This document shows, one piece after another, positions 2,646 to 6,964 of a stretch of DNA of 56,224 bases. The stretch covers positions 1 to 56,224 of the forward strand of contig CALUIM010000019.1 in NCBI GenBank assembly GCA_944320725.1, given 5' to 3'. Source of the stretch: an uncultured Coriobacteriaceae bacterium. GTDB taxonomy: Bacteria > Actinomycetota > Coriobacteriia > Coriobacteriales > Coriobacteriaceae. The notes beneath the pieces are model-generated. The model did not search any database. It was not told the origin of the DNA and saw only the letters and a list, made by a program, of their open reading frames with translations. The translations under genes and the position numbers were made by a program. Positions within the stretch are counted from its first letter, which is position 1; each line of letters begins with the position of its first letter.

Positions 2646-3983
2646 ATGTTCTCTCTGCACAAGACGCTGGGCGGCGTGCATCCGCCCCAGTGCAAGGACA
2701 CGCGTGACTGCCCCGTCACGTCGATCGATCCACCCAAACAGGTGCGCATACCGCTGAACATGCATATCGGCGCGCCCTGCAAGCCTGTGGTGGCAGAAGG
2801 CGACCACGTGTACGTGGGCACGCTGATCGGCGACGGCGAGGGGCTGTACGCGCCCATCCATGCATCGGTCTCGGGTACGGTGACCTTTGTGGGAACCGAG
2901 ACGCTGCCCACGGGCCAGACGGCCCCGGTGGTCGAGATCGCCTCGGATGGCAAGATGGAGCACGACCCCGCCATCGCGGTGCCGAGCTACACCACGAAAG
3001 AGGAGTTCATCGACTGCGTGCGCGCATCCGGCATGGTCGGTTTGGGCGGCGCGTCGTTCCCCACGTGGTTCAAGATGCGTGCTCCCAAGGGCAAGGAGTT
3101 CGAGTACCTCCTCATCAACGCCATGGAGTGCGAGCCGTTCATCACGAGCGACTTCCGCCAGATGCTCGAGCACACCGAGCGTGTGGTGGAGGGCGTGGCG
3201 CGTTGCGCTCGCGCACTCGAGATTCCGGCGGCTTGCATTGGCGTCGAGAACAACAAGCCCGAGGCGCAGGACGCCCTCGAGGCCATGATCAAGGAGAAGG
3301 GCTACGAGGACTTCATCGAGGTGCTGCGTGTGCCCACCAAGTATCCCGCCGGCGGCGAGAAGGTCGTCATCGAGGCCGCTACGGGACGTCAGGTTCCCGC
3401 CGGTGGCCTGCCGGCCGACGTGGGCTGCCTCGTGATGAACGTCACCACGGTGTCGATGGTGGAGGAGTTCTTCCGCAGCGGCATGCCGCTCGTGAGCAAG
3501 GTGCTCACCATCGCCGGTGACTGCGTGGCCAATCCGGGCAACTATGAGGTGCCCATTGGCATCAGCGTGCATGATGCGGTTGAGGCCACGGGTGGCCTTT
3601 CCAAGGATCCGCGCAAGATCATCATGGGCGGTCCCATGATGGGTCGCACGATCTCCGATATCGACTGCCCGATCCTGAAGGCCAACAACGCCATCCTCTG
3701 CATTGAGGACAAGGCGATTTTGCCCGACGAGACGCCCTGCATCCGTTGCGGCCGTTGCGTGCGTGCGTGCCCCTTGGGACTCATGCCCTTCGCGATCGAT
3801 GCCGCCGCCCGTGCTCACGACGCCGTTAAGCTCGATGAGTTCGCGGTCATGAACTGCATGGAGTGCGGTTCTTGCGCATTTGCCTGCCCGGCGCACCGCC
3901 GCATCACCGCCTCGATTCACGAGGGCAAGGGCATCTACCGCTCCGAGGTCGCGCGCCTCACGCAACCTGTGAAGGGGGCTTAA
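2646..3983 (+). CDS. rnfC: Rnf-like electron transport complex subunit C
   Basis: 445 residues from the ATG at 2646, chosen because GAGGGGAAGGGGAG lies just upstream; a longer TTG start at 2610 is less likely. RnfC is the peripheral cytoplasmic NAD(H)-binding subunit. Seen here: the glycine-rich GLGGASFPT loop, NAMECEPFITSD, the YPAGGEKVVIEAATGR segment and GGLPADVG, all as in canonical RnfC. Two ferredoxin-type cluster motifs follow (C365, C368, C371, C375 and C404, C407, C410, C414). First gene of rnfC-D-G-E-A. This subunit looks fully functional, unlike the cysteine-poor A and E subunits of the same operon. Confidence 0.95.
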   Translation: MFSLHKTLGGVHPPQCKDTRDCPVTSIDPPKQVRIPLNMHIGAPCKPVVAEGDHVYVGTLIGDGEGLYAPIHASVSGTVTFVGTETLPTGQTAPVVEIASDGKMEHDPAIAVPSYTTKEEFIDCVRASGMVGLGGASFPTWFKMRAPKGKEFEYLLINAMECEPFITSDFRQMLEHTERVVEGVARCARALEIPAACIGVENNKPEAQDALEAMIKEKGYEDFIEVLRVPTKYPAGGEKVVIEAATGRQVPAGGLPADVGCLVMNVTTVSMVEEFFRSGMPLVSKVLTIAGDCVANPGNYEVPIGISVHDAVEATGGLSKDPRKIIMGGPMMGRTISDIDCPILKANNAILCIEDKAILPDETPCIRCGRCVRACPLGLMPFAIDAAARAHDAVKLDEFAVMNCMECGSCAFACPAHRRITASIHEGKGIYRSEVARLTQPVKGA

Positions 3984-3986
3984 GCG

Positions 3987-4919
3987 ATGAACCTGATCAA
4001 CGAGGCGTCCCCTCATTTCCACGGGGACTCGATGACATTCAAGATCATGGGGTGCGTGTGCCTGGCGCTCGTGCCCACGCTTATCGCGGCCACCGTGCTC
4101 TACGGTCTGGGCGCGCCGCTGCTCGTGCTCGTGTGCATTGCCACCGCGCTCGTGTGCGAGCACCTGTGCTGCATCATCATGCATCGCGAGAGCACCGCGG
4201 GTGATCTCTCCTGCGTGGTTACCGCCATGCTGCTCGCCTTTACCCTGCCCGCGAGCTGCCCGTTTGGCATTGCAGCGCTGGGTACGGCATTCGCCATTAT
4301 CGTGGTGAAGATGCTCTTCGGCGGCATTGGCACCAACGTCTTCAATCCGGCGGTTGCGGGCCGTATCTTCATCATGGTCGCGCTGCCCTCGGCGCTTTCC
4401 AGCTATCCGGATGTTATGGGCAAGCCGCTCGATGCCATCACCGGCGCCACCCCGCTCGCCATGGTTGCCTCCGGCGCCGAGCCCTACAGCTACATGGACA
4501 TGCTGCTGGGCAACCATGCCGGCGCACTTGGCGAGACCTGCATCATCACGCTGCTCATTGGCTACATCTTCCTGTTGGCGGTCAAGGTCGTCGACGGTTG
4601 GGCAACCGTTCCCTTCATTGGCACGGTGGCCATCGTCACGGCGCTTGGCGGCCAGGATCCTGTCTACCAGGTGCTCTCCGGCGGTCTTGCGCTCGGTGCT
4701 TTCTTCATGGCGACCGACTACACCACGACGCCCATGACGCCCAAGGGCAAGATCATCTTCGGTATCGGGTGCGGCCTTATCACCGCGCTCGTCCGCCTGT
4801 TCGCCTCCGCTCCCGAGGGCGTGGCGTTCTCCATTCTCTTCATGAACATGTTCGTTCCGCTGATCGACCGCTACACGCGGACGCAGCCGGTGGGAGGTGT
4901 CAAGAATGCCCTCGTCTAA
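3987..4919 (+). CDS. rnfD: Rnf-like electron transport complex subunit D (membrane, FMN-carrying)
   Basis: 310 residues, mostly hydrophobic with about nine to ten membrane segments. The ITGAT motif (T152-T155) matches the (S/T)GAT site where the ApbE flavin transferase attaches FMN to a threonine in RnfD/NqrB, so T155 is the likely flavinylated residue. The start lies 3 bases after the rnfC stop; the 3' end overlaps rnfG by 14 bases. RnfD normally passes electrons through the membrane beside RnfG and forms part of the ion path. No apbE gene is in the window. Confidence 0.94.
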   Translation: MNLINEASPHFHGDSMTFKIMGCVCLALVPTLIAATVLYGLGAPLLVLVCIATALVCEHLCCIIMHRESTAGDLSCVVTAMLLAFTLPASCPFGIAALGTAFAIIVVKMLFGGIGTNVFNPAVAGRIFIMVALPSALSSYPDVMGKPLDAITGATPLAMVASGAEPYSYMDMLLGNHAGALGETCIITLLIGYIFLLAVKVVDGWATVPFIGTVAIVTALGGQDPVYQVLSGGLALGAFFMATDYTTTPMTPKGKIIFGIGCGLITALVRLFASAPEGVAFSILFMNMFVPLIDRYTRTQPVGGVKNALV

Positions 4920-6181: not shown

Positions 6182-6777
6182 TGGAGTTTCTGAACGCGCT
6201 CTTTTCTGCCGCGCTTGATCAGAACATCGTATATGGTCAGCTCGTCGGCATGGTTGCGGTCATCTTGATCGCGCAGCGCCCCCAGGATGCATTTCGGTTC
6301 GGCGGCGCGCTGTGGGCTTCCTGCTTCGTTGCGGGCCTGCTTGGCTGGCCGCTCTACACGTGGGTACTGGTGCCGTGGGGCCTTACCTACCTGGCACCCG
6401 CGCTCTATCTGCTGGTGAGCAGTGCCGTTATCTTCGCTGTGGGCGCCTATATGGCAACCGGCAAGGATAAGGTGGAGCGCACGCATATCTATCAGATGTG
6501 CGCCGTGCTCGCGGTGAACGCCGCGGTGCTCGCGGTCCCGCTCGCGCTCGCTGCATCCACCGAGGTTGCAACCTACGATGTTGCCATCGGCTCAGCGTTC
6601 GGCGCCGGCCTGGGCGCCTTCATCGCGGTGGTGCTCTTCGCCACCGTTCGCGATCGCATCGACGATACGCTCGTGCCCGGCGTGTTGCGCGGCCTGCCCA
6701 TCTCGCTCGTTACCGCCTCGCTCATGGCGCTCGCGTTCACGGGCGTTGCGGGCATCGCCGGCGGCATGTTCGTCTAA
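6181..6777 (+). CDS. rnfA: Rnf-like electron transport complex subunit A (conserved cysteines absent)
   Basis: 198 residues, about six membrane segments. The C-terminal half matches E. coli RsxA well (VVLFATVRDR, VPGVLRGLPISLVTASLMALAF). The two cysteines that, with two of RnfE, bind the intramembrane [2Fe-2S] cluster are replaced: the GLCPF motif reads GMVAV (V25) and TNCAVL reads VNAAVL (A114). Two other cysteines, C48 and C107, lie at unconserved places. The start ATG overlaps the rnfE stop by one base. The fold is intact, so the protein is probably made, but it should not carry the usual cluster. Confidence 0.9.
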   Translation: MEFLNALFSAALDQNIVYGQLVGMVAVILIAQRPQDAFRFGGALWASCFVAGLLGWPLYTWVLVPWGLTYLAPALYLLVSSAVIFAVGAYMATGKDKVERTHIYQMCAVLAVNAAVLAVPLALAASTEVATYDVAIGSAFGAGLGAFIAVVLFATVRDRIDDTLVPGVLRGLPISLVTASLMALAFTGVAGIAGGMFV

Positions 6778-6790
6778 GGAGGTTTGAATC

Positions 6791-6964
6791 ATGGGAATGT
6801 ATCTGATTGCGCCTCCCGTCTTCATGCTGGTGACGGCGCTCATCCCCGCTGCGGTCATTGGGTTCGCGTCGCGCGCCGCTCGTCGCGCCGACTGGCTCGA
6901 TGCCCAGGCTGCGGCCGAGGCCGATGAGGCTGGCGAGGCAGCCGAGGAGCCGGACGCTGCATAG
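6791..6964 (+). CDS. 57-residue single-span membrane protein at the rnfB position
   Basis: The ATG at 6791 has a strong ribosome site (AAGGAGGTTTGAATC) and starts 13 bases after rnfA, so this is a translated last gene of the operon. One hydrophobic segment (about 4-25) is followed by basic residues (ASRAARR) and a short acidic Ala/Glu-rich cytoplasmic tail. Canonical operons have rnfB here: one N-terminal helix, then a large domain with several [4Fe-4S] clusters. Only the helix-like part is present and there is no cysteine at all. It may be a helix-only RnfB remnant kept as a structural subunit, or an unrelated accessory peptide. I cannot tell which. Confidence 0.75.

Follow-up and report, generated by a model that had tools for sequence, protein, structure and literature searches.

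An operon in a 56,224-nucleotide stretch of DNA from an uncultured Coriobacteriaceae bacterium (here the window) encodes what appears to be an Rnf complex that has retained its NADH-facing half and been stripped of the half that faces ferredoxin. We refer to this arrangement as 'half-Rnf' and consider that it probably acts as a one-way exporter of electrons from NADH. Rnf and its relative NQR are thought to work through an intramembrane [2Fe-2S] cluster, held between RnfA and RnfE, that couples electron transfer to Na+ movement. A natural family that has dropped precisely this cluster, along with the module that feeds it, and has kept the remainder under selection offers a ready-made test of what RnfA and RnfE do without the cluster. 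It also mirrors the proposed intermediate on the way to NQR, in which RnfB is lost except for its helix, and may point to an undescribed route by which gut bacteria, Collinsella stercoris, C. intestinalis, and C. tanakaei among them, dispose of NADH. A literature search, whose reach excluded most subscription papers, returned no description of an Rnf without RnfB in Coriobacteria or Collinsella.

Organization of the operon

The genes rnfC, rnfD, rnfG, rnfE, and rnfA and an open reading frame of 57 residues form a tightly packed series from 2646 to 6964 (Table 1), in a host genome of 2.07 Mb that is 99.46% complete. RnfC and RnfD score above the curated Rnf cutoffs, and RnfC matches chain 7zc6_C with an E-value of 5e-105. 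RnfG is weak against the rnfG model (65 bits versus a cutoff of 102), and RnfA (82 versus 229 bits) and RnfE (39 versus 213 bits) both fall far below theirs. The start of rnfG is the GTG at 4897; counting from the ATG at 4906 instead gives its FMN-bearing threonine the number T181. The earlier note had placed the operon between a promoter and a terminator, and the terminator proves strong at -35 kcal/mol; the promoter match is no better than chance.

Table 1. Features of the half-Rnf operon, in window coordinates.
Feature	Position	Strand	Remarks
Sigma-70-like promoter match	2541..2569	+	1 found versus 1.0 expected; chance level
rnfC	2646..3983	+	NADH/FMN subunit, two [4Fe-4S] motifs; TIGR01945 437 bits versus cutoff 246
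rnfC cluster-Cys codons	within 3738-3770 and 3855-3887	+
rnfD	3987..4919	+	Membrane flavin subunit; TIGR01946 266 bits versus cutoff 207
rnfD covalent-FMN Thr155	4449-4451	+	Riboflavin-site residues N120, D244
rnfG	4897..5520	+	Outer FMN subunit; PF04205
rnfG FMN Thr184	5446-5448	+	Tyr113 also a ligand
rnfE	5522..6181	+	PF02508; cluster cysteines absent
rnfE former ligand sites	L31 5612-5614, G114 5861-5863	+
rnfA	6181..6777	+	PF02508; cluster cysteines absent
rnfA former ligand sites	V25 6253-6255, A114 6520-6522	+
57-aa ORF, single-TM peptide	6791..6964	+	Occupies rnfB slot directly 3' of rnfA
Intrinsic terminator	about 6996..7035	+	MFE -35.1 kcal/mol, z -4.2

The operon is carried by 30 of 67 Coriobacteriaceae genomes, which represent 30 species in four genera and in all of which it is intact; named carriers, besides the three Collinsella species above, include C. 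ihumii, C. vaginalis, and Enorma phocaeensis.

Loss of the ferredoxin-side cofactors

The four cysteines that would bind the RnfA/RnfE cluster had been reported by the earlier note, from alignment by eye, to be V25 and A114 in RnfA and L31 and G114 in RnfE, and alignment to canonical sequences places them at exactly these residues. The comparison set comprised 11 Rnf loci, all from Coriobacteriia families other than Coriobacteriaceae, together with the Rnf of A. woodii. The ligand columns hold cysteine in A. woodii and in 11/11 of the canonical loci, and none of the 30 carriers keeps any of the four ligands. The loss is conserved in a clade, a point that the earlier note had proposed to check, and it is a trait of the family Coriobacteriaceae rather than of Coriobacteriia at large; elsewhere in Coriobacteriia, families possess the canonical complex.

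A shift of the cysteines to nearby equivalent positions was rejected. RnfA and RnfE of the window have three cysteines in total, so that its genome cannot encode a four-cysteine cluster at shifted positions; the two proteins hold fewer than four cysteines in 6 of the 30 carrier genomes, and no replacement cysteine in either is universal among the 30. The residues of RnfA and RnfE that are newly invariant in the variant include neither cysteine nor histidine. Two conserved new cysteines of RnfD (C61 and C91) were judged unlikely to form a substitute cluster, as a topology drawn by eye puts them on opposite faces of the membrane. Nor is there a second, canonical set of subunits with which these proteins could pair: in the window's genome PF02508 finds solely the rnfE and rnfA of this operon, and the RnfB cluster domain PF04060 has no match there or in any of the 67 family genomes, so that a second Rnf is rejected for the window's genome and an RnfB encoded elsewhere for the whole family.

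The absence of rnfB claimed earlier holds for its Fe-S domains, and not for its transmembrane anchor, which appears to survive as the 57-residue peptide. A peptide of 43-69 residues with one helix lies directly 3' of rnfA in all 30 carriers, usually after a gap of ~12 bases, at the slot where class-mates encode a full RnfB of 267-296 residues. A profile built from these peptides matches RnfB residues 1-29 with the two starts in register (hhalign P 2e-4 to 6e-5), a score reached by 0/400 column shuffles, and does not match the other Rnf membrane segments. Because hydrophobic helices may match by chance, the position and order of the peptide weigh equally with the score. Taken together, these features indicate an RnfB cut down to its N-terminal membrane anchor. 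The RnfB helix of A. woodii packs against the helix of RnfG (PMC11889175), and this contact offers a plain reason why the stub was kept. Chance truncation or decay of RnfB is rejected by the presence of the stub in 30/30 carriers and by purifying selection. The ferredoxin-side chain, consisting of the RnfB clusters and the RnfA/RnfE [2Fe-2S] cluster, is thus gone, and by definition the complex is not an Rnf, as two defining features, the four RnfA/RnfE cysteines and the RnfB Fe-S domains, are missing.

Retention of the NADH side and its flavin-attachment genes

The NADH-side chain, from the FMN and two [4Fe-4S] clusters of RnfC through the flavins of RnfD to the outer FMN of RnfG, is intact, as the earlier note had stated for RnfC, RnfD, and RnfG of the window. 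With ligand positions taken from A. woodii residues, all eight cluster cysteines of RnfC, Thr155, N120, and D244 of RnfD, and Thr184 and Tyr113 of RnfG are kept in 30/30 carriers. Residues invariant among canonical sequences follow the same division, with 65/74 kept in RnfC, 54/60 in RnfD, and 9/10 in RnfG versus 13/47 in RnfA and 12/46 in RnfE (p 5e-23).

A search of the genome for apbE, which the earlier note had proposed, found a secreted ApbE whose neighbour is a PF07456 (Gx) transporter; both lie away from the operon, on a different contig and close to ECF transporter genes. ApbE is present in 30/30 carriers versus 7/37 non-carriers and the PF07456 transporter in 30/30 versus 1/37; these unlinked flavin-attachment genes come and go with the operon, although Fisher p-values for the association are inflated by genome relatedness. 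One exceptional non-carrier (G166) has a multi-FMN cluster of its own with ApbE and PF07456. In every carrier, the window's genome included, RnfG is the sole FMN_bind protein, and the constant presence of ApbE and of both flavin-bearing threonines is what is expected of an ApbE-dependent flavinylated system.

Proposed mechanism and alternatives

In the canonical complex, RnfG passes electrons to and from RnfA/RnfE and RnfD through its outer FMN. In half-Rnf, NADH would reduce RnfC on the inside, the flavins of RnfD would carry the electrons to the covalent FMN that RnfG would hold at the outer face, and RnfG, freed from shuttling to the RnfA/RnfE cluster, would pass them to an extracytosolic acceptor. 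RnfA, RnfE, and the RnfB anchor, conserved as membrane parts that lack the known cofactors, would serve as a scaffold and as the docking site of RnfG, while provision of the flavins and their attachment probably fall to the secreted ApbE and the transporter beside it. Such a complex would likely let fermenting gut bacteria rid themselves of NADH by way of an acceptor outside the cell. The earlier proposal of a ferredoxin-free route from NADH through flavins remains the best reading, and the cofactor pattern fits it; we infer the direction of electron flow and the external acceptor from that pattern alone.

The RnfA/RnfE cluster of A. woodii and the two subunits themselves, not RnfD, perform Na+ pumping, and deletion of the cluster abolishes Fd:NAD+ activity (PMC11889175). 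Pumping by this mechanism has most likely been lost here because it needs the cluster and nearby residues, which are mostly changed (RnfA Q85, Y105, T110, and T111; RnfE L22 and E115); RnfE R67 is kept in 21/30 carriers and L103 in 27/30.

Ion transport of another kind, in which docking of RnfG still switches the conformation of RnfA/RnfE and moves Na+ or H+, perhaps via RnfA Asp13, is an unlikely alternative. The two subunits are under selection, and structural models suggest that their fold is retained, RnfA matching solved RnfA/NqrE with TM-scores of 0.76-0.80 and RnfE matching solved RnfE moderately at 0.55-0.60 (mean pLDDT 75 and 77, respectively). RnfA D13 and Q20 are invariant in 30/30 carriers and new relative to canonical RnfA, and Asp13, which sits in a predicted membrane segment, could mean that RnfA/RnfE still carry ions or protons. 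Against such a pump, however, stand the changes to most A. woodii Na+-transport residues and the disappearance of the redox event that sets off the mechanism established for Rnf. We hold it just as improbable that, on top of a split of Rnf at a functional seam that left RnfB as a one-helix peptide and the NADH half as a dedicated exporter, the RnfA/RnfE dimer of this clade-fixed respiratory complex was re-purposed as a new, cluster-free ion pathway, perhaps through Asp13, in which case ions would still be pumped when an external acceptor oxidizes NADH.

Similarly doubtful is an NADH:quinone reductase, in which electrons would end in a membrane quinone, as in NQR, via RnfD or RnfG. RnfD is homologous to the quinone-reducing NqrB, and a UbiA-family gene occurs in 10/30 carriers versus 0/37 non-carriers, the one examined being MenA. 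However, no UbiA-family prenyltransferase was found in 20/30 carriers or in the window's genome, where a self-made quinone is therefore unlikely, and RnfC, unlike NqrA, retains all of its cofactors.

It is still less probable that an unlinked ferredoxin-like protein replaces RnfB and that RnfA/RnfE bind another cofactor, so that a two-way circuit survives. The retained RnfB anchor could serve such a protein as a docking site, but the three cysteines of the window's pair, the lack of any universal cysteine substituting for the ligands, the newly invariant residues without cysteine or histidine, and the strong divergence of RnfA/RnfE on the stem of the carrier clade all speak against it.

Distribution, selection, and origin

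Carriers form one clade with a bootstrap of 100 in both the RnfC+RnfD and the RnfA+RnfE trees, and next to this clade stands L100, a canonical locus that belongs to the same order (bootstrap 98-99). On the stem branch RnfA+RnfE accumulated 1.81 substitutions per site versus 0.45 in RnfC+RnfD, four times as much. Canonical lineages show the opposite (1.20 for RnfA+RnfE versus 1.91 for RnfC+RnfD between L100 and L093), which amounts, with a small outgroup sample, to an approximately sixfold shift in relative rate on the carrier stem. This pattern fits a single event in which constraint on the RnfA/RnfE cluster was lost. A scan by two short peptide patterns, which distant cases could escape, found no variant outside Coriobacteriaceae.

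All six genes are under purifying selection, with dN/dS of 0.006-0.08 between the window and locus L064 and a value of 0.08 for the stub. The operon is flanked by htrA in 24/30 carriers and by ligA in 23/30; these conserved neighbours look unrelated, no conserved partner enzyme lies near the operon, and no gene adjoining it encodes an acceptor protein. It is absent from many Collinsella, and of 12 non-carriers inspected, 11 have htrA immediately in front of ligA with no rnf genes; repeated loss is the simplest reading of this patchy presence, with gain a less simple possibility. A decaying or non-functional Rnf relic, for which the truncated RnfB, the diverged RnfA/RnfE, and these absences could be cited, is hardly credible given the low dN/dS in every gene, the intact operon across four genera, and the flavin cassette, which accompanies the operon in every carrier. 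The earlier note's view that the complex was remodelled in a coordinated way and did not decay is strongly supported by the monophyly of the carriers, the selection on all six genes, the kept ligands of RnfC, RnfD, and RnfG, and the co-inherited flavin-attachment genes.

Comparison with known systems

Half-Rnf shares with the Rnf complexes of A. woodii (9eri) and C. tetanomorphum (7zc6) the gene order C-D-G-E-A-(B), the flavin and [4Fe-4S] ligands of RnfC, RnfD, and RnfG, the fold of RnfA/RnfE, and the RnfB transmembrane helix; it differs in having no RnfB Fe-S domains and no RnfA/RnfE [2Fe-2S] ligands, and in its mostly changed Na+-site residues. NQR has been proposed to begin with the loss of rnfB, whose helix was perhaps recruited into NqrF (Reyes-Prieto 2014; PMC4014512), and the disappearance of the Fe-S part of RnfB with persistence of its helix recurs here. 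The opposite half, however, was given up: NQR keeps the RnfA/RnfE cluster, lost the cofactors of RnfC, and gained NqrF, whereas half-Rnf keeps the RnfC cofactors and lost the cluster. With no nqrF in the operon and a cofactor-bearing RnfC, it does not fit NQR, which is marked by an NqrF bearing FAD and [2Fe-2S] and by a cofactor-free NqrA.

Two-gene Nqr/Rnf-like systems have been proposed to pass electrons one way from NAD(P)H through an RnfD-like protein and a flavinylated RnfG-like protein to the outside (Meheust 2021, PMC8238504; PMC10979944). Judged by its cofactor pattern, half-Rnf would share this logic of one-way export. Those systems consist of an RnfD-like/NAD-domain fusion and an RnfG-like protein, without RnfC, RnfA, or RnfE and without the RnfD flavinylation threonine, whereas half-Rnf has RnfC as its NADH module and keeps RnfD Thr155; its RnfD, of 310 residues, matches PF03116 only, with no fused PF00175 NAD-binding domain. 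Listeria-type flavin-based extracellular electron transfer likewise combines a secreted ApbE, an adjoining transporter, and a flavinylated outer protein, but here the complex derived from Rnf would itself do the work of the NADH dehydrogenase.

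Clade-typical residues and other genes

Three subunits encoded by the half-Rnf operon carry residues that all or almost all members of the variant clade share and that are rare or absent in canonical Rnf, namely D13 and Q20 in RnfA, C61 and C91 in RnfD, and C261, C293, and C341 in RnfC. Among the family genomes compared, a UbiA-family prenyltransferase is present in 10 of the 30 carriers of the operon and in none of the 37 non-carriers, and the one gene examined from these 10 carriers, that of G042, was identified as MenA. No menaquinone-pathway genes were recognised adjoining it, a possible sign that a precursor is salvaged from other microbes.

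A multi-FMN_bind cluster in G166, a family member without rnf, encodes ApbE together with a Tp47-like/FMN_bind protein, a Fer4_5 membrane protein, and a fusion of PF07456 with an ABC domain, and likely represents a separate extracellular electron system. The window's genome encodes two ApbE proteins, the second without an evident signal peptide, yet its sole FMN_bind protein is RnfG.

Locations of the genes and clusters discussed
Feature	Location
RnfA	window 6181-6777
RnfD	window 3987-4919
RnfC	window 2646-3983
MenA (G042)	L148:7624-8712
Multi-FMN_bind cluster (G166)	L108:4197-13879
Second ApbE (window's genome)	L107:8723-9910
SigI/RsgI-like genes	window 9535-12210
Putative glutamate synthase genes	window 45120-51436

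Elsewhere in the window, a SigI-like sigma factor gene precedes a pair of genes encoding RsgI-like anti-sigma domains, the second also encoding a repetitive, Gly/Tyr/Asp-rich C-terminal tail. Two further genes resemble, by eye, those for the small and large subunits of glutamate synthase.
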